From Zhaonella formicivorans (GTDB lineage Bacteria; Bacillota; DUOV01; Zhaonellaceae): a stretch of 64,000 bases of DNA. The stretch spans positions 1,956,142-2,020,141 of the forward strand of contig NZ_CP085524.1 of the NCBI RefSeq assembly GCF_004353525.1. Direction: 5' to 3'. The notes under the pieces are model-generated. The model searched no databases. It was not told where the DNA came from and saw only the letters and a list, made by a program, of their open reading frames with translations. Shown here one piece after another: positions 15,650-53,555 of the stretch. Position numbers and translations under genes: made by a program. Each line of letters starts with the position of its first letter. The first letter of the stretch is position 1.

Positions 15650-17005
15650 TTACATCGGGGGTTTTTGCTCACCAGTTTCAATAGGATTATTTTTATCAGA
15701 ACTCCACTCATACCAACCACCATCATAAACGGAAATATTCGGCCAACCCATTACATAAGCATAAAACCAGACTTCTGCAGCCCTCCAACCCGTTCCGCAG
15801 TAAAAAGCTATTTTTTTATCAGGTGTAATACCCCACTCTTTCCAAAACGCCTGTATTTCAGCCGCATTGCGCATGGTCTGGTCAATATTTCTGTAATCTT
15901 TTATGTCATGGCCCCAAACATCACCAGGTATTCTCCCCTTTGGCTTAATGTAGCTATAACCACTGGTCTCCCCGATCTGTTCAGCCCAGCTGCGTATACT
16001 AACCAAGCACCCATTGGGATCTTTTAAAAGTTCTTTTGCTTCGGGCATATCGATTATATATTCCGGATGGGCAGGCGTAGGCTTGCCAAAGTCAGTAACA
16101 GGTTTTTTCGGATTAGAACCTGTTTCGATCTCGAATCCCGCATTTTTCCATGCTTCAAAGCCGCCATTTAAAATGCGAACATCCTCCACACCCATGTACA
16201 TCATGATTAAGGCTACTCTGGCTGCAGGGGTGGTATCAGCAGAATATAGAACCACAGTGGTATCATGGGTTATTCCGTTGTTTAAAAGCATTTTCTCCAG
16301 CTCTTTGTCGGACAGCCTGTTCCATAAAGGTTCCGATTCAACTTCGTCAGTATTGATATGAACAGCTCCGGGGATATGCCCTTTCTTATAATCTTCTCCT
16401 TGACCCCAACTTACTTCAAAAAGTTTATACCCTTTGCCGGGGTAAGTTTCAGGGTTCTTTCCATTTATTAGATCGTTTACCCAGGCAGGATGAACTAATT
16501 TGGAGTAATTAGGCAAGCTTTCCATGGGCAAATCTTTGTTTTTAGCCCACTCAGACGCACCACCCTTGTAGATATAGATATTTTTGTATCCCAGTTCTTT
16601 TAAAGCGCCTGCCATGGCTTCACTATTGCCCTTATCCACATCATAGATGACAATATTTTTATCCGCAGTGATCCCTTTTGTCTTCAACGTATCTGTAAGA
16701 GTTTGCTTATTCATCTTCTTGAGCCAGGGATAGGGGAAATCTACCGCCCCCCTGATGTGACCTCCTCGTTCAAGCCCATCCAAAGCCCAGCCTATGTAAG
16801 CGGCTTCATCCCTAATGTCCACAATAACAAAATCTTTATCATCCAATTTTGTTTTTAATTCCTCAGCAGTAATTACCGAAAATTTTTCCGCTTGCTCTCC
16901 CGTTTGATCTGTTTTCACTGTGTCACCCGATTGAGAACAACCGAAAAGAAAAAGGCTGGCTACAAGGAGAAAAATATATAATTTTCTGCTAATTACGGAA
17001 GTCAT
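15650..17005 (-). CDS. Extracytoplasmic triple-rhodanese lipoprotein (sulfurtransferase-like)
   Basis: About 451 residues from the ATG at 17005; AAAGGATG fits this start better than the ATG three codons earlier. A lipoprotein signal ends in LFLFGCSQS (acylated Cys 23). Three rhodanese modules follow. In the first two the catalytic cysteine is absent (IYDVDKGN and LYSADTTPA at the active loop). The third has FYCGTGWRAAE with Cys near residue 403. Rhodaneses carry sulfur as a persulfide, so only the last module can do so here. It ends the minus-strand cluster with the selenorhodanese-like gene and two glycosyltransferases, and is anchored outside the membrane. Confidence 0.87.
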   Translation of the reverse strand: MTSVISRKLYIFLLVASLFLFGCSQSGDTVKTDQTGEQAEKFSVITAEELKTKLDDKDFVIVDIRDEAAYIGWALDGLERGGHIRGAVDFPYPWLKKMNKQTLTDTLKTKGITADKNIVIYDVDKGNSEAMAGALKELGYKNIYIYKGGASEWAKNKDLPMESLPNYSKLVHPAWVNDLINGKNPETYPGKGYKLFEVSWGQGEDYKKGHIPGAVHINTDEVESEPLWNRLSDKELEKMLLNNGITHDTTVVLYSADTTPAARVALIMMYMGVEDVRILNGGFEAWKNAGFEIETGSNPKKPVTDFGKPTPAHPEYIIDMPEAKELLKDPNGCLVSIRSWAEQIGETSGYSYIKPKGRIPGDVWGHDIKDYRNIDQTMRNAAEIQAFWKEWGITPDKKIAFYCGTGWRAAEVWFYAYVMGWPNISVYDGGWYEWSSDKNNPIETGEQKPPM

Positions 17006-17081
17006 TGGTATCATCCTTTCTACTCATTATAGTAACTTCCTAACCTGATTCGTCTTTCTGCAATCCGCCGGTTAATAAAAA

Positions 17082-17855
17082 CTACTCATGTATCATGCTG
17101 TTTTCATTCTTTGCTTTTTCCTTATATAGTTCCGATATAGTTCCGGCATATTTGTGAATCATTTTTTCTGCAAAAAGGTAAGACTGCAGTCTGTTTGCAA
17201 ACCTATACTTTTTAGCTGTACCAACATGGTAAAAGAATAGCAAATCTTCCCAGGTATCTACATCCCCTTTCTCTTCCAACAAGCTGACAGCTAACCCGGC
17301 GTTACGAGCCTTTTCCAGTGTCTGAAACAGTACATAGCCCGTCCCCCACCGGATATCCTGAAACAGAACTGTATGCACCTCCTTTAAACCAAGTAAATAA
17401 TAACCCCCGTCAAGAGCAGGCCCCAAAACAATATCACAGCTGTCTAATTCCTTAAAAACCCTTAAAATAGTATCAGAAGTAATATCAGGGGTGTCCGTGC
17501 CGATCACTGCCAGGCGATCATGGTTCTGAAGAACTTGACGGCAGGCGTCATCAAGCCTTTGCCCCAGATCACCTTCTGCCTGGGGACGCACTTCAAACAA
17601 ACCCAACTGCTCAGAGGTGAAACCCAAACCCGGGAAACCAAGTTCAGCCAAATGCTTTTCCCTAAAAAGCTCCGGACTGCCCCCGGTATAGTAAAGGTAA
17701 CACTTGATACCTGTTTCCCTCAACATCTTCCCGATATCCAACAAACACGCCATCTGAAAAGCCGCACATTCCGCCCCCGATAGTTTTTCCATTAACCTGG
17801 TTTTGCTTATTCCCGGCAAAGGGACTTTGCTCATCACAATTACTGCCGGAAACAT
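17082..17855 (-). CDS. TIGR04282-type glycosyltransferase (rSAM/selenodomain-associated transferase 1)
   Basis: 257 residues with a CofC/GT-A-like nucleotidyl-binding fold. The start VIVMSKVPLPGISKTRL, the DxD-like AVIGTDTPDI, LGPALDGGYYLLGL and a DIRWGT segment are typical of the DUF2064/TIGR04282 family. That family was named for frequent neighbourhood with radical SAM/selenodomain proteins, and is found with its partner TIGR04283. The partner gene lies immediately upstream and overlaps by 16 bp. Donor and acceptor sugars are unknown. Confidence 0.85.
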   Translation of the reverse strand: MFPAVIVMSKVPLPGISKTRLMEKLSGAECAAFQMACLLDIGKMLRETGIKCYLYYTGGSPELFREKHLAELGFPGLGFTSEQLGLFEVRPQAEGDLGQRLDDACRQVLQNHDRLAVIGTDTPDITSDTILRVFKELDSCDIVLGPALDGGYYLLGLKEVHTVLFQDIRWGTGYVLFQTLEKARNAGLAVSLLEEKGDVDTWEDLLFFYHVGTAKKYRFANRLQSYLFAEKMIHKYAGTISELYKEKAKNENSMIHE

Positions 17856-18538
17856 GATATTTGGTTCCTTTTCGAAGAATACATTTTAGCCAAACTGTCA
17901 GGTGATACTCCAAGGTAAAACAATAGCTTCAGTTTTTGCATCAAGAGCAACGTCCTCAAGGGACCTTGTTCTTTAAAACGCCGGGAGCTGGTAATAATCT
18001 TTGCCGATAGTACTTTTGCAGCAGAATAGCGGCGCAGCTTTTGAGATAAAGAGAGATCTTCCATCAAAGGAATATCCGGAAAACCACCATTGGATATGAA
18101 AAACTGTCGTTCACAAAAAATTCCTTGATCTCCGAAGCAGATGCTGAAGACTTTGGCTCTCAGCCTTGAAGCAGCTGCTGTTATCTGAAAAAAGGGAGTG
18201 TCTTCATCAAAAGATAAGGTGCAGCACCCCCACTTGTGACCTGATTGTACGGCTGCGCGCATCTCAGCAAAAGCCGTTTTTTCTACAATTGAATCGGCAT
18301 GCAGGAAAAAGAAAATATCCCCTGTTGCCGTTTCAGCACCGACATTTAACTGCTTGCCGCGCCCCTTGGAGGTACAGATAAACTTGACAGGATACGAGGC
18401 GCAAATTTTTGAGGTATTATCACTACTGCCGCCGTCGCTGACCACTATTTCCAGACCCGGCATACCTGCCAACTGTTTCAAAGTGCGGCCAATATTTTTT
18501 TCCTCATTATATGTAGGTATAATGACGGAAATATTCAC
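17840..18538 (-). CDS. TIGR04283-type GT2 glycosyltransferase (rSAM/selenodomain-associated transferase 2)
   Basis: About 232 residues from the GTG at 18538, which has AAAGGATGG upstream and places the strand ISVIIPTYNEEKN at the N-terminus as usual for GT2 enzymes. VSDGGSSDNT, FFLHADS and a QGIFC segment support this assignment. An in-frame TTG at 18655, directly after the rhodanese stop with GGAG upstream, would add 39 atypical residues. Its family co-occurs with TIGR04282, as here. Together the two transferases may build or modify a small glycosylated product of the cluster; this is inference. Confidence 0.83.
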   Translation of the reverse strand: MNISVIIPTYNEEKNIGRTLKQLAGMPGLEIVVSDGGSSDNTSKICASYPVKFICTSKGRGKQLNVGAETATGDIFFFLHADSIVEKTAFAEMRAAVQSGHKWGCCTLSFDEDTPFFQITAAASRLRAKVFSICFGDQGIFCERQFFISNGGFPDIPLMEDLSLSQKLRRYSAAKVLSAKIITSSRRFKEQGPLRTLLLMQKLKLLFYLGVSPDSLAKMYSSKRNQISCFRQ

Positions 18539-18655
18539 TGCCTGCCATCCTTTCAGACTGTCTGCCAATAGATGCAGTGTTGCCGTCGTAGCACCGGCAG
18601 CACACTGAAATTCATTGCAAACATAAGCAAAAAGTTTTCGGGCCTTAAAAGCCAA

Positions 18656-19630
18656 CTATTTCTCCATCGGCATGCTGGGATCTCCGCCCCATTCATAGAT
18701 TGAGCCCTCGTAGTTTCTAACTTTCTCAAAGCCAACGGCTCTGAGGATCATGGATGTATATCCTGATCTGATTCCCATAGTTCAGTAAACTGTAAAGTCA
18801 TCTTCCGGCTTTACGCCATAAGACGCCATAATATTTTTAATTTCTTCCGGGCTTTTAGGAGTACCATTTTTGTTTAAAAGGTCCAACCAAAGCATATTAA
18901 CAGCACCCTTAATATGGCCTCCTCTTGGCTCTCCTGCCTTTTGAGAACCTTTAAATTCTTCCTCTGTCCTGACATCAATTAAGACTTGTTTACCTAAATT
19001 GTTAAAGACATACTCCTTTGTTGCAGCATAGCTTTCATCATAATCTTTAAGCACTACGCCTGTTATTGGTTTCGGTTCCGCTACTTCATCGGTAACCTCA
19101 TAGCCAAGCTCTTTCCAGTAGGAAAGACCGCCAACCAGCAGTTTGACATTATCCAATCCTGCCATTTTTAACTGCCACACTGCTCTGCCGTCTGCGCCGG
19201 GACCCCTAAATACATCAGAATAGAAGACAACAGTTTTCTTATTGTCAATACCAAGGGATTCCAGAGTTTTTTTCAAATCCTCTTTGTTTTTTATCGTTCC
19301 CCAGCCCGGATCCCCGGGCTTTCCGATTTTGTCCGAAAACGCATGGAGTCCGATACCGATAGCTCCGGGAATATGTTCCTTGGCATATATATCCGGTTTA
19401 TTGCAATCCAACAAAACCAGATCTTCTCTCCCCAGCAATTTTTTTAACTGCTGCGGAGTAATTAAAAAATCATTGTTCTTATATACTGAGATATCAAACT
19501 CACCGGCAGGAACTTCACTTTCTTTAGCAGTATTATTAACGCATCCTGCCGACCCCAAAGCGATGCTGAGCAAAACAAATATAATAACTAATAAGTGTTT
19601 GACTTTAAAAGTCCTCTGCAAATTTTTCAC
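18656..19630 (-). CDS. Two-domain rhodanese lipoprotein with UGA (selenocysteine) at the catalytic cysteine
   Basis: The frame from 19630 encodes a lipoprotein signal (lipobox SAGC) and two rhodanese domains. At 18782-18784 it meets TGA exactly where the active-site Cys belongs (FTVY-TGA-TMGIRSGY), then stays open for 41 more codons of good rhodanese sequence (SMILRAVGFEKVRNYEGS, YEWGGDPSMP) to a TAG at 18656. Read through as selenocysteine, the product is 324 residues with Sec 283. The first domain has no Cys at its loop (FYSDVFRG). A hairpin in the bacterial SECIS position follows the UGA. Selenium genes lie nearby. A recent nonsense mutation is the alternative, but the exact position argues against it. 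Confidence 0.82.
18746..18768 (-). promoter_or_regulatory. Bacterial SECIS-like hairpin after the rhodanese UGA
   Basis: Nucleotides 14-36 after the UGA fold as GAUCA/UGAUC then GGAU/AUCC around AUAC, with one bulged A. With the inner pairs open, the apical loop begins GG at nucleotide 19. This fits the known bSECIS model of a loop with an early G about 16-37 nt from the UGA. Confidence 0.6.
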
Positions 19631-20318
19631 CTTCTTTTCTCTTTTTGTCTTTCCAAATATTTTTAAATAAAATAATCAATGTACTCAGGGCAAACAGCAA
19701 CAATAAACCTGTAACAAAAGTCTTGACCGTACCTACCAACATCCCTCCAATATAAGAGTAAATAATTGTTGCCGGAAGCTGACCAATGCCTGTGGCAATG
19801 AAAAACGGCCCAAAACCCATTGAAGTCAGTCCCGCAGCATAACTTACAATGTCAAAGGAAATAAACGGCAACAGCCTGGCAATTAATATAGCATACTTCC
19901 CGTAGTGGGCAAAAAAATCGTCCACTTTTTGCAGGGCGGTCCGGGAAGTGAGTTTTTCCACCGCATCCCTTCCCAAAAAACGGGCAATATAGAAGCAAAG
20001 TGCAGCGCCCGCCATTGCACTGGACCAAGACAATATAGTACCCTTTACCCAACCGAAAAGACCCGCATTAGCAAAAGTAATGATAAAGGCAGGTAACGGA
20101 GCCGCTACAGACTGAAAGACCATCAGCAGAAAAGATACGATAGGGGCCCAAATACCGAAGCCCAGTATATAGTCCCTGACTAACTCCACATCCACATTGC
20201 TGAGTATAAAAAATGCCTGGTTGACATTTATCTTTATAATTGGGACAAAATAATACAAACATCCTATGATCGACAATGCCAGCAACTTGCCTTTATAGCC
20301 TTTTAATATCTTATTTAT
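19605..20318 (-). CDS. TVP38/TMEM64 (SNARE-associated/DedA-like) membrane protein
   Basis: About 238 residues with five to six membrane segments. The family core is recognisable: APLPAFIITFANAGLFGWVKG, GAALCFYIARFLGRDAVEKL and ARLLPFISFDIVSYAAGLTSM. Family members are implicated in lipid or small-molecule transport, without a settled substrate. The start is unusual. GGAGG at 20328-20332 is followed by no in-frame ATG, GTG or TTG; AUA at 20318 is the best-spaced codon. A TTG at 20429 lies inside the upstream radical SAM gene. It overlaps the UGA-rhodanese gene by 26 bp, so the two are coupled. Confidence 0.78.
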   Translation of the reverse strand: MNKILKGYKGKLLALSIIGCLYYFVPIIKINVNQAFFILSNVDVELVRDYILGFGIWAPIVSFLLMVFQSVAAPLPAFIITFANAGLFGWVKGTILSWSSAMAGAALCFYIARFLGRDAVEKLTSRTALQKVDDFFAHYGKYAILIARLLPFISFDIVSYAAGLTSMGFGPFFIATGIGQLPATIIYSYIGGMLVGTVKTFVTGLLLLFALSTLIILFKNIWKDKKRKEGEKFAEDF

Positions 20319-20370
20319 ATCAAAGCACCTCCAGTTTTTACTATGTTGGCTTAAGTTCCTAAAAGGCACT

Positions 20371-21378
20371 TTATTTTTTTGAAAATATTTTTGACGGACC
20401 TGATAATATTTTCCATTCGGCTTCTGCAAAAATTTGTTTACATTTTTCTACGGTGAAGCCCCGGCTCACAGAAGTTTCCTGTTCAGTATCCCTGGGGTTT
20501 GAACCCATCTCAGCCCAAATTAAATTTGCCCCGGCAGATGCCCCTAAAACATTAGGCTCATGTGTACAATTACCTGGAACACTGTAACCCATGGCTAATC
20601 GGACCACAGCCAGAATATGGGCCATTTTGGCTTCACTGACTATGCCGTACTTACTAAGCTGGGTATTTGGTATGGGAATCCTCCTGGCAGCCCCACTGTA
20701 ACAAGGTTGAGCTTCCCTGGTAATCAAAGTCTTCTCAACCAGCTCTGCCACAGAGTGCTCCGGACCAACCGGTTCCACACAGGTTCCTAAAAGAAGTCCT
20801 GCATCCCTGGCTGCCCGGAAAGTCTTTAAACGCATTTCCTGCTTGATAGCTGTTACCATGCCTTCTCCCAACCTTAAAGCATGGTAAACGCCGGAAAACC
20901 CTGCTTCTTTCAGCAGCACCGCCTGCTCATAATCAAAATCGCCTATGTTGGCAACCATAATGGTTTCAGGCTGCAGATTTGAACGCACTGCTTTTCCAAC
21001 CCTTATAAAATTTTCAAACGGGAAATTGGCTGTAGCCATTAAGTAAACGGCATTTGCACCTGCTTTTTCGAATGCCAGGCATTTTTCTACAATCTCTTCC
21101 AGCGGCGCCACCTTGTGTTCCTTAAAAATCCCGTTGGAAGCCGCAAATGAGCAAAATGCACAGTTTTTAGGACACGGTGCCAGATTTAAGCCCACCTGCC
21201 CGTGGATCTCCGCATAGCCTTCATTTGCTGATTCGCTCATCTTTCTGGACGCACACTGTACTAAAAAAGATTCCTCTGAAAAAAGAGGCAGGGAAAATAA
21301 TTGGGCAATCTCTTCCCCTGAGATCAATTGTCCGTCCAGAGCTTTATTAATAATTCCATGAACATTTAAATTGCTCAA
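20371..21378 (-). CDS. Radical SAM enzyme, BioB/HydE-like fold
   Basis: 335 residues from the TTG at 21378 (GGGAG six bases upstream). The [4Fe-4S]-AdoMet motif is CPKNCAFC at residues 69-76. Later features are MATANFPFE, MVANIGDFD, LRLGEGM and GTCVEPVGPEH, like biotin-synthase-type (BATS) enzymes. A late Cys/His segment GNCTHEPNVLGASAGANLIWAE may bind an auxiliary group. It is not the ArsS/TIGR04167 radical SAM that usually accompanies the two glycosyltransferase families, so the reaction is open. Neighbours on both sides are on the same strand. Confidence 0.83.
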   Translation of the reverse strand: MSNLNVHGIINKALDGQLISGEEIAQLFSLPLFSEESFLVQCASRKMSESANEGYAEIHGQVGLNLAPCPKNCAFCSFAASNGIFKEHKVAPLEEIVEKCLAFEKAGANAVYLMATANFPFENFIRVGKAVRSNLQPETIMVANIGDFDYEQAVLLKEAGFSGVYHALRLGEGMVTAIKQEMRLKTFRAARDAGLLLGTCVEPVGPEHSVAELVEKTLITREAQPCYSGAARRIPIPNTQLSKYGIVSEAKMAHILAVVRLAMGYSVPGNCTHEPNVLGASAGANLIWAEMGSNPRDTEQETSVSRGFTVEKCKQIFAEAEWKILSGPSKIFSKK

Positions 21379-21411
21379 GATAATCTCCCTTCCATTACAA
21401 AAATAAAACAA

Positions 21412-23294: not shown

Positions 23295-23879
23295 CTATAT
23301 ACTAATAATTTTTGTTGTTTCGTTTATCTTCTCCACTATAGCATACATATTGGAAATCGAACCGACGCATAACTTTTCTTTAAGGTGAAAAAAATCTAAG
23401 CAGGTCCCACAGGCCAGCAGTTCTGTCCCTTTTTTCTCCAGAGCCTTTAATTCAGCTAATACCGGCGAACCTTCGCAGACCAGCTTCACTCCGGAGTTCA
23501 TAAAAATTAACACACCGGGTGCGTCTTCACTTTCAGCCAGACTGTACAACAAACTGCGAATAAGAACTGAGCCCAGCTCGTCGTCCCCTTTTCCCAATTT
23601 ATCAGAAGTAATTAAATATGCCGAATTGCTGGCGGTCTTACAGCATTTGTCCTCTGCAGCCAGTATGCCTTTACTGATATGAATGTAATAATCACATCCC
23701 TGCTCTTCTACCCTAACTAGGCAATTTTGACTTTGAGCAAACCTCACTACATTGTCTCTGGCCGCTTCGTTATTCACAATAGTGACTAATTCTCCTGCCT
23801 CCATCTCCTCCAATGCCTTTTTTGTTGTGATTACCGGCCCGGGACACGATACGCCCCTCATGTCCAATTGTTTATCCAT
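23295..23879 (-). CDS. yedF: YedF, selenium-metabolism sulfurtransferase-like protein
   Basis: 194 residues. The N-terminal TusA-like domain has the active Cys in RGVSCPGPVITTKKAL (Cys 11). A DsrE-like C-terminal domain holds LGSVLIRSLLYSLAES and a CGTCLDFF motif. This two-domain form (TIGR03527) is a marker of selenium-using bacteria and is thought to handle reactive Se or S, though its reaction is not settled. A long hairpin and a tRNA-Lys-like remnant lie upstream. It shares a terminator with the convergent UGA-containing Mop gene. Confidence 0.92.
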   Translation of the reverse strand: MDKQLDMRGVSCPGPVITTKKALEEMEAGELVTIVNNEAARDNVVRFAQSQNCLVRVEEQGCDYYIHISKGILAAEDKCCKTASNSAYLITSDKLGKGDDELGSVLIRSLLYSLAESEDAPGVLIFMNSGVKLVCEGSPVLAELKALEKKGTELLACGTCLDFFHLKEKLCVGSISNMYAIVEKINETTKIISI

Positions 23880-24216: not shown

Positions 24217-25116
24217 CTACTGCGCCAAACGGCGAAGCAGTCCCGAACACAGATCAGCAAAAATAACTAACAGGAAATAGCAAATTAAAAGAAGTGTTAT
24301 ATCCGTATAATGGAACCAGCTCATGCTTAGCTTAAACTGGCGCCCCAGGCCTCCTGCACCCACAAAACCCACGATGATTGTGGTCCTGATGATTACCTCC
24401 CAGCGGTACAACAAAAAGGTGAGGAATTTAGGAGTGACGGCAGGAAAAACCCCATAGAAGAGCAACTGCCAGGTACCGGCGCCGCTGGCCCGCAAAGACC
24501 TGATGGGACGTAAGTCCAGGTCCTCCACTACTTCCGCGCACAGTTTGCCCAGAATACCAAAATTATGCAGTCCCAGGGCAAGAGCGCCCGGCAGTATACC
24601 CGGTTTAAAGATAAAAATAATTAACATGGCCCAGACCAGTTCCGGTACTGCTCTGGAAAAAATATATAATAGGCGGATAAAACCGAAAGCCAGCCACCCG
24701 TACCAAGTGCTTTTAAGGGTTAAGGAACCGTCAGCCGCAGTGCGGGCGGCAGGAATGACAGTAAAAAGCATGCCGATTGCGGAAAAGCCGATAGCCAAAA
24801 CGCTCATCTGCAGTGTTTCATAAGTAAGTTTCAGGCCATTAAGCCAGTTCTCCGCCAGCAAAAATGCCGGAGCTTCAGAGCCTAAACCCAGCATATTGCT
24901 AAAGAATTTTTTGGCATAGTAAAGGTTTCTTGCAGAAAAATATGCAGTAAGGCTGGCCCCATCGGCTGTAAAAATAAAAGCCCAGGATGCCGTCACCAGT
25001 ATTAAGACTGCCCACAGCGAAATTTTTACAGTGTCCAGGCGGCGTGCGAAAGATACGACCCGGTTACTGCAACGTTTTGGCCTAAGCATTCTGCTTATTT
25101 CCTGTTCCGCTTTCAT
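24217..25116 (-). CDS. phnE: Phosphonate/oxyanion-type ABC transporter permease, second copy
   Basis: 299 residues from the ATG at 25116, which follows AGGAGG and overlaps the previous stop (ATGA). An upstream in-frame start at 25149 lacks a site. Six hydrophobic segments are present. The permease EAA-like loop SLRASGAGTWQLLFYGVFPAV and the C-terminal YRWEVIIRTTIIVGFVGAGGLG match PhnE-type permeases. It pairs with the first permease as a heterodimer. The substrate class may be phosphonate, phosphite or another oxyanion; no C-P lyase gene is nearby. Confidence 0.88.
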   Translation of the reverse strand: MKAEQEISRMLRPKRCSNRVVSFARRLDTVKISLWAVLILVTASWAFIFTADGASLTAYFSARNLYYAKKFFSNMLGLGSEAPAFLLAENWLNGLKLTYETLQMSVLAIGFSAIGMLFTVIPAARTAADGSLTLKSTWYGWLAFGFIRLLYIFSRAVPELVWAMLIIFIFKPGILPGALALGLHNFGILGKLCAEVVEDLDLRPIRSLRASGAGTWQLLFYGVFPAVTPKFLTFLLYRWEVIIRTTIIVGFVGAGGLGRQFKLSMSWFHYTDITLLLICYFLLVIFADLCSGLLRRLAQ

Positions 25117-25913
25117 GCCACCAGCCTCCTGCGCAGCTGGTTGCTCCAAAAGTCAACCAGCACAACCAACCCGATTAAAAAGAAAATATGTGTCCAGACC
25201 CGGTCGTAACGTAAATCCTGCAGTGCAATGTTAATTTGGTAGCCTAAGCCGCCCAACCCTATAAAACTCATGATTGTGGCGGAGCGAATGGCGCATTCAA
25301 ACCTGTACATGGTATAGCTGACCATATCGGCCATGGCCATGGGAAAATAGCCATAAAAAAACTGCTGCACTTTACCTGCTCCACTGGCCTGAAGGGATTT
25401 GAGCGGTTCCCTGGGCACATCATTCAAGATATCGGCGAAAATCCGTCCCAGGGTTCCACCATACGGAATAGCCAAGGCAAAAATTGCAGCAAATGGAGAA
25501 AGTCCTGCAGCAGCAACAAAAAGCCAGGCCCATACCAGCTCATGAATGGCCCGCATAAAACCCAATAATCCACGGAAAAAGCCAATGGAAGCCATGCGCC
25601 CGATAGTTTTTTCCGCCAGGATCCCCGAAGCTAAAACGCCAAAAACCAGCGCTAATATTACAGCCACTGACATGCCGGCGGTGGCATATACAATCGTCCG
25701 CCAGGCAGAAATCAGCGCCACCTGCAGGGTTCCCGAGGACAAATCCGGCTGAAAAAAGGCTTTTACAAGCTGTAAAATAGTAGCCTTACCTCCGGGATGA
25801 AATAAATCATCTCCCCACTGAACGGAAAAAAGGCTCCAGATAAATGCGGCAATGAGGAAGATAGATAGAACGGTCCGGTTATGCAAGTCAAGAAACTGCC
25901 TTGGCATTGGCAT
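25113..25913 (-). CDS. phnE: Phosphonate/oxyanion-type ABC transporter permease, first copy
   Basis: 266 residues with about six transmembrane segments. The conserved ATPase-contact loop SLQASGAGKVQQFFYGYFPMA and YRFECAIRSATIMSFIGLGGLG mark it as PhnE-like. It overlaps the ATPase gene by 26 bp and the second permease gene by 4 bp, so all four genes of the cassette are translationally linked. Confidence 0.9.
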   Translation of the reverse strand: MPMPRQFLDLHNRTVLSIFLIAAFIWSLFSVQWGDDLFHPGGKATILQLVKAFFQPDLSSGTLQVALISAWRTIVYATAGMSVAVILALVFGVLASGILAEKTIGRMASIGFFRGLLGFMRAIHELVWAWLFVAAAGLSPFAAIFALAIPYGGTLGRIFADILNDVPREPLKSLQASGAGKVQQFFYGYFPMAMADMVSYTMYRFECAIRSATIMSFIGLGGLGYQINIALQDLRYDRVWTHIFFLIGLVVLVDFWSNQLRRRLVA

Positions 25914-28184: not shown

Positions 28185-29459
28185 TTATTTCCCCAGCATT
28201 TCAACAAATGCTTCAATTCTGGTCCTGAGCTGCTCAGCATCCTGTTCGCTGTAATCGGTTTCCAAATGCATCACAGGTATGCCGGCTTCTTTCAGTGCGT
28301 TCTGCACGTTATAACTTTCCGTTGAATACAGCCCGCAGAACTTCAAGTTGGCATCGATAATTCCGTCTACCTTATACTCTTTTGCCAAACGCAAGATATC
28401 GTCTATCCTGCCCGGGTTGGGAGTAAAGCAGGCACAGTTGATCTTCATATACCGCTCAGCCAGCGCCCGAATTTGACCTTCTAAAGTTGCCTGGGATTCA
28501 TCAACCAAGTTATCGAAGTAACGGGTACCGGTGCACATTTCTTCAACTACAACCGCTGCCCCGCTGGTTTCAATCAGGTGGTGCAGCTTCCAGTTGGGGA
28601 TAGCCATTGGTGTACCGGTAATCATGATCCGCGGTGCATTTACCGGGAATACCCCTTCACCTTTTGCCACCCTGGCTTCCAGTTCGTCACAGAGGGCATT
28701 GGTCTGGGCAGTGAAGCGAGCGGGGTCATCATAGAAGGCAATTTGTGTAGCGAGCAACACATCCTTGCCGCTGATAGGCACAGGGGAATTTTTCCTGGAG
28801 TTATACAGGCGAGCCAAGGCTTTACGTTTCTCGTTAATCAACCTGATGCTCTCTGCCAATCCTTCAGAGGTTACCTTATTGCCGGTCACTTCCTCTACCT
28901 TTTGCATAAACAGCTTGATTTCATCTTCCCAAGCAGCAATATCCTTAACTCTCTTCATCTGGGGCAGGTCCATGACATATACAGGCACATCCTGGGATAA
29001 TATCTCCCAGGCTTTTTTCTTGCCGTCGCAAGTAGTCTCCCCGATGTATATATCTGCAATCCTAAAGAAAGGACATGTCCTTCCCAGGCGGGCTCCCACT
29101 GAAGCCTTGATCAACGGACAAGTATTTGCCGGCAGCACTTTTTCACCTTCAGGGACCCAAAACTGGGAACCGCCACATAAGCCGGTTGCAATCCCGCCGG
29201 CAGCAAAAACTACTTCGTCGGGTACAAAAATACAAAATGTGCCGAAGACTTTACCGCCTTTCTTTTGATGTTCGATCAATTCTGCCGGCCTGACGCCGTG
29301 GATTTCAGAAACAACAAAATTAAAATACTCCATACCTTCCGGGCGGTTTTCCTGCTCCAGGTAAATATTGGTATATACCTCTGGCAAGACTTCACAAAGT
29401 AGGTCGTGTTTTTCCAAATCCATCCCCAAATCAGTCCACATTTGTCTGTAATCAGCCAT
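28185..29459 (-). CDS. Double-cubane-cluster-type anaerobic reductase (HgdB/2-hydroxyacyl-CoA dehydratase D-component family)
   Basis: 424 residues in one chain. Cluster-type cysteines are seen in GLCGGSQFW, LPANTCPLIK, GRTCPFFRI, ETTCDGKKKAWE, NCACFTPN and LKFCGLYSTES, and the fold matches HgdB-like subunits. Single-subunit members next to an activase have been described as double-cubane [8Fe-9S] proteins that reduce small molecules at very low potential. True dehydratases have two subunits, and no second subunit is present. GGAGGAATT precedes the ATG. Substrate unknown. Confidence 0.85.
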   Translation of the reverse strand: MADYRQMWTDLGMDLEKHDLLCEVLPEVYTNIYLEQENRPEGMEYFNFVVSEIHGVRPAELIEHQKKGGKVFGTFCIFVPDEVVFAAGGIATGLCGGSQFWVPEGEKVLPANTCPLIKASVGARLGRTCPFFRIADIYIGETTCDGKKKAWEILSQDVPVYVMDLPQMKRVKDIAAWEDEIKLFMQKVEEVTGNKVTSEGLAESIRLINEKRKALARLYNSRKNSPVPISGKDVLLATQIAFYDDPARFTAQTNALCDELEARVAKGEGVFPVNAPRIMITGTPMAIPNWKLHHLIETSGAAVVVEEMCTGTRYFDNLVDESQATLEGQIRALAERYMKINCACFTPNPGRIDDILRLAKEYKVDGIIDANLKFCGLYSTESYNVQNALKEAGIPVMHLETDYSEQDAEQLRTRIEAFVEMLGK

Positions 29460-29496
29460 TGTAATTCCTCCGTTTCTCCATAAAATACCTGCATGA

Positions 29497-30282
29497 TCAA
29501 TTACTGATTAATTCATTGCATAAAATTTCCCGGCCTATTAAGGCAGCCCCAATTGCACCTACCAACTGACAATCTCTCGGTACCACTATTTTCCTCCCAA
29601 GTTCATTTTCCAAACTGCGCCTTACACCGTCATTCAATGCCACACCTCCTGTAAAAGTAACTATTCCGTTTGTTCCCATCCTGTTGGCCATTGCCGCCAT
29701 CCGCCTGGCAATGGAAGCGTGGATTCCGGCAACTATTTTCCCTTTTTCAACTCCCTGAGCTAATAAACCGATAATTTCGGATTCCGCAAAAACTGTGCAC
29801 ATATTGTTTATTGTCACCGGCGTGTGATCTCTGGAAAGTTCGGACAGCTCACTGACATCCAGTCCTAAAGCTATAGCCATGACTTGCAAAAACCTGCCTG
29901 TACCTGCAGCGCACTTGTCATTCATGGCAAAATCCAATACTTTGCCCTTTTCATCAATTTTAATTACTTTGCTGTCCTGGCCTCCGATATCCATTACCAA
30001 ATCGGTTCCGGGCACCAAAAACGCAGCACCCCTGCCATGGCAGGTAATTTCGGTAACCGCCTTATGGGCAAAATCAAGGGATACTCTGCCGTAACCGGTG
30101 GCAACGATTATATCTACCTGCTCATCCCTATATCCCTCTTGTTCCAGCAGTTCCTGAAAACACTCCCGGCCCGCCTGCCGGGGGCTCCATCCGGTAGGCT
30201 TAACTTTACAACACATTTTTTCGTTATCCAAAAGCACCACTTTAGTGGAAGTGGAACCTACATCGATGCCTGCCGCAATCAT
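29497..30282 (-). CDS. ATP-dependent activase of the 2-hydroxyacyl-CoA dehydratase family
   Basis: 261 residues of the BadF/HgdC ASKHA fold. Phosphate loops are GIDVGSTSTKVVLL at the N-terminus and DIGGQDSKVIKID near residue 95. The [4Fe-4S] ligands appear in NDKCAAGTGRFLQ and NNMCTVFAESE, and the adenosine motif is TFTGGVALNDG. It hydrolyses ATP to push an electron into the adjacent reductase. AGGTGTAGG precedes the ATG, and the gene lies 37 bp upstream of the reductase. Confidence 0.93.
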   Translation of the reverse strand: MIAAGIDVGSTSTKVVLLDNEKMCCKVKPTGWSPRQAGRECFQELLEQEGYRDEQVDIIVATGYGRVSLDFAHKAVTEITCHGRGAAFLVPGTDLVMDIGGQDSKVIKIDEKGKVLDFAMNDKCAAGTGRFLQVMAIALGLDVSELSELSRDHTPVTINNMCTVFAESEIIGLLAQGVEKGKIVAGIHASIARRMAAMANRMGTNGIVTFTGGVALNDGVRRSLENELGRKIVVPRDCQLVGAIGAALIGREILCNELISN

Positions 30283-30402: not shown

Positions 30403-31563
30403 CTAGGCCGTCAGTGCCTGGCATACCTTCCTCAGGCAATCCAGCACATAGTCTATGTCTTCTTCAGTAGTAAAGTGGCCGAGGCTTAAGCGCAATACCC
30501 CTTCGGGAAACGTGCCCAGGGTTTTATGGGCCAAAGGGGCGCAGTGCAAGCCAGGCCGGGTCATAATGCCAAACTTTTGGTCTAAAACATAACACAGCTC
30601 CGCATTGTCTATTCCATGCATGTTCAGAGCCACTGTGCCGGTTTGCAGCCGGGGGTCCTGCGGGCCGTAAATGGTGATTCCCGGTAATTCCCTTAATCCA
30701 TTTAACAGCTTTCCGGTAAGCTCCATCTCCTTGGCCCGTACCTTATCTACTCCTATAGACCGGAGGTATTCCACTGCCGCCCCCAAGCCAACTATTCCCA
30801 ATGTATTCAATGTACCGCTTTCAAACTTATCGGGCAAAAAGCCAGGCTGTTCTTCCCGGTCGGATATACTGCCCGTCCCCCCTTCATACAGAGGCTGCAT
30901 CCTTTCCGCCACTTCTTTTTTAACGCAAAATCCCCCTATCCCCATGGGGCCTAACAAATGTTTATGCCCGGTAAAGGCCAGTACTGAGGCATTCAGTCCC
31001 TCGAAATCCAGGGGAAGGCAGCCTGCCGTCTGGGCAGAATCGATTACAAAGTATAGCCCGTACTCTTTTGCCAGCTTCCCCATTTCCTCTAAAGGCACGA
31101 TCGTACCGCAAACGTTGGAAGCATGAGTTGCCACGATCATTCTCGTATTGGGCCCCACTGCCTCAATAACCGCCTGGGGATCAACAATACCCCGGGAATC
31201 AGCAGGCAGCACGGTATAAGTAACCCCCCGCTCTTTGGACAAAGCTGTTAAAGGGCGGACAACCGCATTGTGTTCCAGTCCCGTGATCAGCACGTGGTCG
31301 CCCTGTGTTAAAAGCCCTTTTAGAGCAATATTCAAGGCGACCGTAATATTTGGCGTGAATACTACCTGGCCAGGGTCCTCTGCACTGAAAAACCCTGCTA
31401 AAGCAGCTCTCGCCTCAATTACCCTCCTGCCTGCTTCCAGGGAAAGTTCATAACCTCCCCTTCCCGGGTTGCAGTTTATTTCTTTGAAGAATTGCTCCAT
31501 GGCTTTCAATACCGTCTCCGGTTTACGCTGGCTGGTAGCCGCATTATCCATATAAACTTGCAC
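30403..31563 (-). CDS. Cysteine desulfurase family protein (class V aminotransferase fold)
   Basis: About 386 residues from the GTG at 31563, with GAGGTGA at the right distance; another GTG three codons earlier overlaps that site. MDNAATSQRKP begins the domain, the PLP lysine is in FTGHKHLLG, and the mobile catalytic cysteine is in PGLHCAPLAHKTLGT. The sequence fits the EF2568-type subfamily often found with selenium genes. It would mobilise S, or Se from selenocysteine, as a persulfide or selenide. The divergent YedE cluster supports a selenium role. Confidence 0.88.
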   Translation of the reverse strand: MQVYMDNAATSQRKPETVLKAMEQFFKEINCNPGRGGYELSLEAGRRVIEARAALAGFFSAEDPGQVVFTPNITVALNIALKGLLTQGDHVLITGLEHNAVVRPLTALSKERGVTYTVLPADSRGIVDPQAVIEAVGPNTRMIVATHASNVCGTIVPLEEMGKLAKEYGLYFVIDSAQTAGCLPLDFEGLNASVLAFTGHKHLLGPMGIGGFCVKKEVAERMQPLYEGGTGSISDREEQPGFLPDKFESGTLNTLGIVGLGAAVEYLRSIGVDKVRAKEMELTGKLLNGLRELPGITIYGPQDPRLQTGTVALNMHGIDNAELCYVLDQKFGIMTRPGLHCAPLAHKTLGTFPEGVLRLSLGHFTTEEDIDYVLDCLRKVCQALTA

Positions 31564-31832
31564 GTTCTTCACCTCATCTGGATCTTATCACAGAAACCTA
31601 TAAGTATTATCTTTTCCATTAATAAAATATTTTTATTTTATTGCTTTTGCCGATAAACCTTATTTATAGCTCTCATATGCCATTCTTTCAAATTTCCCAA
31701 CTTGCCTAAAACCATATAATGTTTTTATTGTACATAATGTAGTATATAAAAACATTCAATTTTACTTTTTGTCCGGATGAAGTTATCGTAGTAAGCGAAA
31801 AAATCAAAAAATTTTTTTAAAGGGGGAATAAG

Positions 31833-32927
31833 ATGAAAAAGACGGGTATTATCATTGCCGGCGGAATTATCGGAATTTTGGCAGCCTTACTTGTGAAATT
31901 TGGCAACCCGGCCAACATGGGCGTCTGTGTAGCCTGTTTCTACCGGGACATTACAGGGGCTTTGGGACTGCACAGGGCTGAAACAGTACAGTACATCAGG
32001 CCGGAAATCATTGGTTTCATTCTGGGTGCTTTTATTATTGCCTTTACTTCCAAGGAGTTCAGGGCGCGAGGCGGCTCATCCCCTCTCCTCAGGTTTGTGT
32101 TGGGCTTCTTTGTGATGATTGGTGCATTGGTATTTTTAGGCTGCCCGCTGCGGATGATTTTACGCCTGGCCAATGGGGACCTGAATGCTTTGGTAGGTTT
32201 ATTTGGTTATATCTTCGGCATCGTTATAGGAATTCAGTTCATTAAAAAAGGATTTTCCTTGGGGAGAAATTACAAACAGACAGCAGTTAACGGATATATC
32301 ATGCCGGTATTTGCTTCAGTGTTGTTGCTGCTGGCAATAACCCAGCCCGCATTTATCTTTTTCAGCCAAAAAGGTCCCGGCGCTACCCATGCTCCGCTGC
32401 TTTTTTCTTTGGCTGCAGGTCTGATCATAGGTGCTGTGGTGCAAAAAACCAGGCTTTGTACTGTCGGGGGCTTCAGAGATGCAATCTTAATTAAAGACTT
32501 TCATCTTTTAAGCGGCCTAGTTGGAATTTTTGTTTTCGCTTTACTAGGAAACCTGATTTTAAACCCCTCCGCTTTCAAAATAGGTTTTGTGGACCAGCCC
32601 ATCGCCCACAACGATTTTGTCTGGAACTTTTTAGGTATGACTTTGGCAGGTTTAGGTTCGGTCTTGCTGGGCGGGTGCCCCTTGAGACAGACTATCCTTT
32701 CTGCGGAGGGAGATACCGACGCCGCTGTCACGGTCTTTGGCTTAATGGCAGGGGCAGCATTTGCCCATAATTTCGGCACCGCAGCCAGCCCCAAAGGAGT
32801 GCCGGTGAACGGCCAGGTTGCAGTTATAATCGGCCTCGTAGTAGTTTTAGCCATTGCCGGCTTAACGGTATGGCAAAATACTCAAAGCACAATGAAAGCG
32901 AAAGAAGGTGTTGCTCTTGGTCAGTAA
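31833..32927 (+). CDS. yedE: YedE-family putative selenium transporter
   Basis: 364 residues with about ten transmembrane segments in two YeeE/YedE halves. Each half carries a GCPLR signature (FLGCPLRMILRLANGD near residue 108 and LGGCPLRQTILSAEGDTDAAV near 282). An N-terminal NPANMGVCVACFYRDI motif matches the selenium-associated YedE group. AAAGGGGGAA precedes the ATG. It overlaps the TusA-like gene, as is typical of YedE-TusA pairs that pass a chalcogen from membrane to cytosol. Thiosulfate-type substrates remain possible. Confidence 0.9.
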   Translation: MKKTGIIIAGGIIGILAALLVKFGNPANMGVCVACFYRDITGALGLHRAETVQYIRPEIIGFILGAFIIAFTSKEFRARGGSSPLLRFVLGFFVMIGALVFLGCPLRMILRLANGDLNALVGLFGYIFGIVIGIQFIKKGFSLGRNYKQTAVNGYIMPVFASVLLLLAITQPAFIFFSQKGPGATHAPLLFSLAAGLIIGAVVQKTRLCTVGGFRDAILIKDFHLLSGLVGIFVFALLGNLILNPSAFKIGFVDQPIAHNDFVWNFLGMTLAGLGSVLLGGCPLRQTILSAEGDTDAAVTVFGLMAGAAFAHNFGTAASPKGVPVNGQVAVIIGLVVVLAIAGLTVWQNTQSTMKAKEGVALGQ

Positions 32928-53116: not shown

Positions 53117-53179
53117 ATACTGACCTTGCAAATTGATCATACCATGCTACCTATCAACCGTAGGTACAAATGGCAATAC

Positions 53180-53437
53180 TCAACAAGCAGGTTTCCTGGC
53201 TTAGGTTCACAGCCTTGTCCTACACCTTCCCATCCGCACTCAACCCGCTACAATTAACCGGTTAACCCAATACTGCCATGCATAAAACATTAGAGATGGC
53301 TAACCGTATAGTTTATACGAGGTTAAGGCCCGGACAGTGGCATAACGCAGGACGGCTCCCCTTTACAGTGGCGGGACCGCGCTGGATTTTCACCAGCTTC
53401 CCTTTTTGTACTTCCTGATGAAGTACCACTTGTCTGC
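53180..53437 (-). promoter_or_regulatory. Cobalamin riboswitch
   Basis: On the minus strand the conserved core reads GGGAAGCTGGTGAAAATCC, then CGGTCCCGCCACTGT, and ends with AAGCCAGGAAACCTGC. P1 can form from GACAAG near 53436 with CTTGTT near 53183. A GTACTTC/GAAGTAC hairpin (53408-53426) lies just inside P1. It is followed by an intrinsic terminator and controls the minus-strand B12 uptake and cobaltochelatase operon. Confidence 0.95.
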
Positions 53438-53555
53438 AAAATATGCTCTTATCCACAAAATATTTCTGAGGTTATTATATCCATCGCAGTAATTTTTTGC
53501 AATACCCTTTTTTAAAGCACAAACCGGTCTGAAAACAGGCTTTGAATTCTCTTAC

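Follow-up and report, generated by a model that had tools for sequence, protein, structure and literature searches.

Sulfane-sulfur transfer is the established reaction of the rhodanese family. Selenocysteine (Sec)-containing rhodaneses have been published in several forms, among them UxxG-motif proteins (forms 2 and 4, PMC13188914), and some of the UxxG-type proteins belong to the COG2897 rhodanese-related sulfurtransferases. COG2897 and cd01449 Sec sulfurtransferases have also been reported from marine metagenomes (PMC1088965, PMC2398784). Finally, fusions between DedA (COG0586) and rhodanese domains exist, for which the function is unexplained (PMC10127716). The gene described here lies in a 64,000 nt stretch of Zhaonella formicivorans DNA (hereafter the window) and belongs to a clade of rhodanese genes with an in-frame TGA. 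Like the published UxxG proteins (forms 2 and 4, MBM9537886.1 and MCY3690685.1, compared by motif and description rather than by sequence), the products have a predicted Sec in place of the catalytic Cys, with U-x-x-G at the catalytic position in 19 of 19 sequences. Unlike the marine COG2897 and cd01449 examples, the clade is centred on anaerobic Bacillota, has a lipobox at the N-terminus and is linked to a VTT-domain gene. Two other Sec rhodanese families, NF041203 (rhodanese_LYCAU) and NF045694 (TsoB), have different motifs (CxU and UxxxxU, respectively). The window protein scored 31 of the required 115 bits for the former and 21.8 of 805 bits for the latter, which rules out these known NCBIfam Sec rhodanese families as its identity, and the clade reached the cut-off of none of the NCBIfam selenoprotein models. 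We class the TGA clade as a well-supported, conserved and new subfamily within an already known kind of protein.

The reading frame is on the minus strand of the window (18656–19630), comprising 324 codons from a GTG at 19630 and 324 residues when its TGA is translated as a residue. PF00581 matches it in two stretches (116 bits), as expected for a tandem rhodanese. The single TGA is codon 283 (18784–18782) and is followed by 41 codons, TMGIRSGYTSMILRAVGFEKVRNYEGSIYEWGGDPSMPMEK, and a TAG. Because an ordinary ORF caller halts at the TGA, its product ends at 18782 with 282 aa, and the U plus 41 residues (42 in total) are lost, just as had been predicted for automatic annotation. The first-pass annotation had also placed the TGA at the active-site Cys of the second rhodanese domain, with 41 codons of rhodanese sequence beyond it, and both claims held: the aligned column is Cys in 31 of 31 distant homologues. 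Since the truncated gene model loses the catalytic residue, errors in the annotation of the subfamily are probably widespread among genomes of anaerobic Bacillota. A TTG at 19621–19619, preceded by AGAAGGTG, is more likely to be the start codon than the alternative GTG at 19630. Near the N-terminus, a hydrophobic stretch precedes a lipobox Cys that does not vary among the clade members compared (13 of 13). This lipoprotein signal pattern suggests that the Sec rhodanese is probably extracytoplasmic, anchored by lipid outside the membrane.

Relatives were gathered by a scan of GTDB contigs and by class-wide genome searches. All 19 distinct clade genes read directly, including that of the window, have TGA at the same codon, the U-T-M-G motif and an intact 41-residue tail. 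The clade relatives are 53–82% identical and come from Bacillota (Pelotomaculum MAGs, Tepidibacter formicigenes, Sporotomaculum syntrophicum, Desulfoscipio-labelled MAGs, HGW-Firmicutes-15, and Acidaminobacter and Clostridium MAGs) as well as from Aquicultor/Actinobacteria-labelled MAGs. In the class-wide searches, full-length matches at 53–78% identity each carry exactly one TGA, while matches at about 40% identity or less carry none; the 31 distant homologues with Cys fall in the latter range of identity. Aligning the homologues had been proposed as a check on the first reading, and the column proved to be UGA (19) or Cys (31) throughout. No Cys-bearing member of the TGA clade was seen in either the contig scan or the class-wide searches, and in a tree with 13 TGA genes these were monophyletic with 100/100 support. 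The pattern looks like one Cys-to-Sec replacement followed by fixation throughout the clade, with the reverse possible under another rooting. It would be a clean replacement of single origin, in a protein that seems to lie outside the membrane. One genome, G534, seems to be the Pelotomaculum MAG of L060 and holds two copies of the gene, on G534:C122 and G534:C133, with identities of 78% and 76% to the query and one TGA each.

Were the UGA a true stop, the gene would encode a shortened rhodanese or be decaying, and its tail would be a remnant. Some copies are indeed damaged. The sole broken copy, in one MAG (L072/L103), has a single frameshift upstream of the UGA that stems either from faulty assembly or from recent damage, and two other genomes have degenerate tail fragments (G383, L079, minus strand near 1535–1657; G121, L080 near 2110–2220). 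These fragments are probably remnants of lost copies and suggest occasional loss of the gene. However, TGA and tail are intact even in the frameshifted copy, and frameshifts after the UGA, which had been named in advance as evidence against a selenoprotein, were found in none of the close relatives. In the tail, 25 of 41 residues show no variation among 13 sequences, and the tails share a common end point (that of L096 is two residues longer). The TGA, kept in 19 of 19 genes, is never another stop or a sense codon, and truncation would cost an otherwise strongly conserved protein its active-site residue. Given the conservation of both tail and TGA, we rejected the stop-codon or pseudogene explanation, which we regard as highly improbable.

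The genome of the window encodes the components needed for Sec insertion. The genes selA and selB and tRNA-Sec lie side by side, and selD (L082, G000:C1:2510500-2512900) is also interrupted by a TGA in frame (AAG-U-AAKVGPG), which makes SelD another probable selenoprotein. The search for selA, selB, selC and selD suggested by the first-pass annotation thus found all of them. In addition, selB scored above the cut-off in 13 of 13 other host genomes searched. As a control, we counted selB in genomes of the phylum and found it in 72 of 101; co-occurrence with selB is therefore weak evidence by itself, showing that a necessary condition holds, and we no longer treat it as strong proof. We also considered that the UGA is decoded in another way, by Trp or Cys suppression or by near-cognate read-through. 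TGA is the ordinary stop codon of 16 of the 59 window genes, which indicates a genome without general recoding and rules out a reassigned genetic code. With the full Sec machinery present, the same in-frame TGA device in selD and a homologue column that is Cys and never Trp, we give such decoding very little credence compared with insertion of Sec.

The sequence immediately 3´ of the UGA is under selection at the RNA level. Where two clade genes share an amino acid, the same codon is used in 0.807 of pairs for codons U+5 to U+20, compared with 0.42 before the UGA, 0.34 for U+1 to U+4 and 0.50 after U+20, and the observed mean synonymous identity was never reached in 100000 column shuffles. Folding of the 70-nt segment that begins at the UGA gives −22.2 kcal/mol (z −3.5 relative to dinucleotide shuffles). 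Against codon-preserving shuffles, the fold was significant at p < 0.01 in 8 of 13 genes and at p < 0.05 in 11 of 13, and in the gene described here it is the strongest (z −4.4) among the segments scanned along the gene.

The consensus structure consists of two tandem hairpins, which together make up the putative bSECIS element. Hairpin 1 (18746–18768, minus strand) has nine pairs, with a stem that starts 14 nt after the UGA. This agrees with the hairpin described earlier in pairing and position, but the GG that had been assigned to its apical region is in the upper stem and not in the loop. Hairpin 2 (18725–18745, minus strand), which was absent from the first-pass annotation, follows directly, with 8–9 pairs, a GUU apical loop and invariant synonymous codons GGC and TTT. 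In hairpin 1 we noted a compensatory change from A-U to U-A in L069, L071 and L098, and an alternative pair (27/41) changes from A-U to G-C; the pairs of hairpin 2 are preserved through G-U/A-U changes. The strong conservation of the sequence leaves few base-pair changes. The covariation scores were above those of both shuffled and slid controls. Even unstructured sequences can score above shuffles when they are related, however, and covariation support for the hairpins is modest. The published bSECIS model requires a G in the loop and a distance of 16–37 nt from the UGA, and some putative elements are described as breaking it (PMC13188914). By this model, hairpin 1 has an allowed spacing but a loop (AUAC/AUGC) without the required G, and hairpin 2 has a loop with G first, but at 45 nt from the UGA this loop is beyond the range. 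Neither hairpin satisfies all of the standard rules, so that the bSECIS check proposed for this gene returned a selected structure 3´ of the UGA but not a strict match. The rules for bacterial SECIS elements could be tested well on this frozen two-hairpin RNA.

Collectively, an in-frame UGA that aligns with Cys and is kept as UGA among close relatives, a genome encoding SelA, SelB, tRNA-Sec and SelD, and a selected RNA structure immediately downstream are what is expected of a bacterial selenoprotein. Coding maintained past the UGA adds to this sequence-based support. We conclude that the gene very probably encodes a selenoprotein in which Sec would be inserted at codon 283. The initial suggestion of a likely selenoprotein was therefore borne out, its genomic checks being favourable except for the strict bSECIS match.

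The gene directly upstream (19605–20429, minus strand) encodes a VTT-domain (PF09335, DedA/TVP38-like) membrane protein (96 bits) and overlaps the Sec rhodanese frame by 26 nt. A VTT gene directly precedes the rhodanese gene at 20 of 20 clade loci, where the VTT proteins are 57–78% identical. At one locus (G309, L058 6773-9682), three successive VTT-domain genes precede the Sec rhodanese. A search of PDB sequences with the VTT protein gave no match. Several Cys homologues are also near VTT genes, which suggests that the VTT-rhodanese association is probably older than the Sec residue. A functional partnership between the Sec rhodanese and the VTT protein seems to us reasonably probable from this constancy. 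As in the DedA-rhodanese fusions, a VTT domain is joined to a rhodanese, but the fusions are single polypeptides, presumably with Cys, whereas two adjacent genes and a predicted Sec are found here. The constant VTT partner bears on the acknowledged puzzle of the DedA-rhodanese domain link.

To place the protein among characterized rhodaneses, a structure was predicted with AlphaFold2, with Sec modelled as Cys (pLDDT 84, pTM 0.82). The model matched the two-domain thiosulfate sulfurtransferases CysA2, CysA3, SseA and Thermus rhodanese (1uar) with TM scores of 0.71–0.86, and EanB and YnjE more weakly; sequence profiles agreed with these matches. Thermus 1uar and the Mycobacterium proteins CysA2, CysA3 and SseA likewise have two domains with the catalytic residue in domain 2, but they use Cys rather than Sec and are about 30% identical. 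Domain 1 of the window protein appears to have no catalytic residue. We considered its Cys76 as a resolving partner and dropped it, as this residue is not conserved (Ala in L064 and L067).

By these likenesses, sulfane-sulfur transfer is somewhat favoured as the main activity. Because a redox role is assumed for the majority of predicted selenoproteins (PMC9312934), the protein could instead be a Sec-based thiol or peroxide oxidoreductase, or a detoxifying enzyme, on a rhodanese scaffold. The active-site loop nevertheless retains the rhodanese pattern [CU]xxGxR and there is no conserved second redox-partner Cys nearby, the variable Cys76 included, making an oxidoreductase a less likely, though live, alternative.

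Selenium-related genes are found elsewhere in the window. As the first-pass annotation had stated, YedF and YedE are within 15 kb: the selenium-metabolism marker YedF (TusA + DsrE; 23295–23879, minus strand; TIGR03527, 214.6 bits) is 3.7 kb away and the putative selenium transporter YedE (31833–32927, plus strand; TIGR04112, 522.6 bits) 12.2 kb away. A cysteine desulfurase/selenocysteine-lyase-like gene is also within this distance (30403–31572), beside YedE and the genes for a double-cubane-cluster reductase (512 bits) and an acyl-CoA dehydratase-type activase (28185–30282, minus strand). The Sec protein might accordingly serve in selenium handling and not in sulfur transfer, carrying selenide or perselenide to SelD or YedF/YedE; a link of DedA proteins to selenite resistance, as cited in PMC10127716 (Ledgham 2005), fits this alternative. 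We consider it a less likely, though live, possibility: in relatives, the roughly 5 kb on either side of the gene yielded no homologues of YedF and YedE, so that the linkage is poor evidence for a selenium-handling function and was downgraded, the protein is apparently outside the membrane and away from SelD, and its nearest relatives by fold are thiosulfate sulfurtransferases. An ArsS-type rSAM selenoprotein (TIGR04167) was likewise considered as a partner, and no match above the cut-off was found in the genome of the window.

With the VTT gene always just upstream, we propose that the protein acts as an extracytoplasmic, Sec-based sulfane-sulfur transferase working with the VTT protein. SelB and tRNA-Sec would decode UGA 283 as Sec, directed by the RNA structure just 3´ of it, and the protein would be exported and then lipid-anchored on the outer face of the membrane. 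There, the Sec of domain 2, in the six-residue loop U-T-M-G-I-R, may take up sulfane sulfur as a selenenyl-sulfide and hand it to a thiol acceptor or a partner outside the membrane. The VTT protein would pair with the Sec rhodanese, and its probable task would be to accept, or carry through the membrane, a chalcogen species or lipid-linked substrate. The substrate, the direction of transfer and the role of the VTT protein in this scheme are our suggestions, as is the earlier idea that a rhodanese with Sec may be a strong selenide or sulfane carrier. More speculatively, and with greater doubt than belief, the two genes can be viewed as an obligate module for extracytoplasmic chalcogen transfer or transport, in which the VTT protein would move sulfur or selenium species or a lipid-linked intermediate, the Sec rhodanese lipoprotein would load or unload them, and a non-standard two-hairpin element would direct Sec.

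The remaining genes of the run vary among relatives. In the window, the Sec rhodanese gene is between the VTT gene and two glycosyltransferase genes on the same strand, an arrangement that the first-pass annotation had recognized (TIGR04283, next downstream, 17840–18655, minus strand, 248.2 bits; a TIGR04282 glycosyltransferase-like protein, 17082–17855, minus strand, 166.7 bits). After these comes a YnjE-like triple rhodanese gene (15650–17014, minus strand; YnjE, 3ipo/2wlr, 383 bits). Upstream, a BioB-like radical SAM protein gene (20371–21411, minus strand) adjoins the VTT gene, as it does in several relatives, and the run also includes genes for a C-GCAxxG-C-C protein and an LPG-synthase-like flippase. 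Most of these accompany the gene in some relatives only, and in other relatives the flanks hold unrelated transporters and other genes. E. coli YnjE resembles the Sec rhodanese in being an exported multi-domain rhodanese tied to VTT-type proteins, but it is a Cys enzyme with three domains. The E. coli ynjE operon also carries the TVP38-type genes ydjX and ydjZ, and the YnjE-like gene together with the VTT gene recalls the ydjXYZ-ynjABCDE region. Elsewhere in the window, we noted two genes for PhnE-like permeases (24217–25913, minus strand), scoring 174 and 188 bits against a curated cut-off of 216.7 bits, and a cobalamin riboswitch (53169–53448, minus strand, 94.8 bits).
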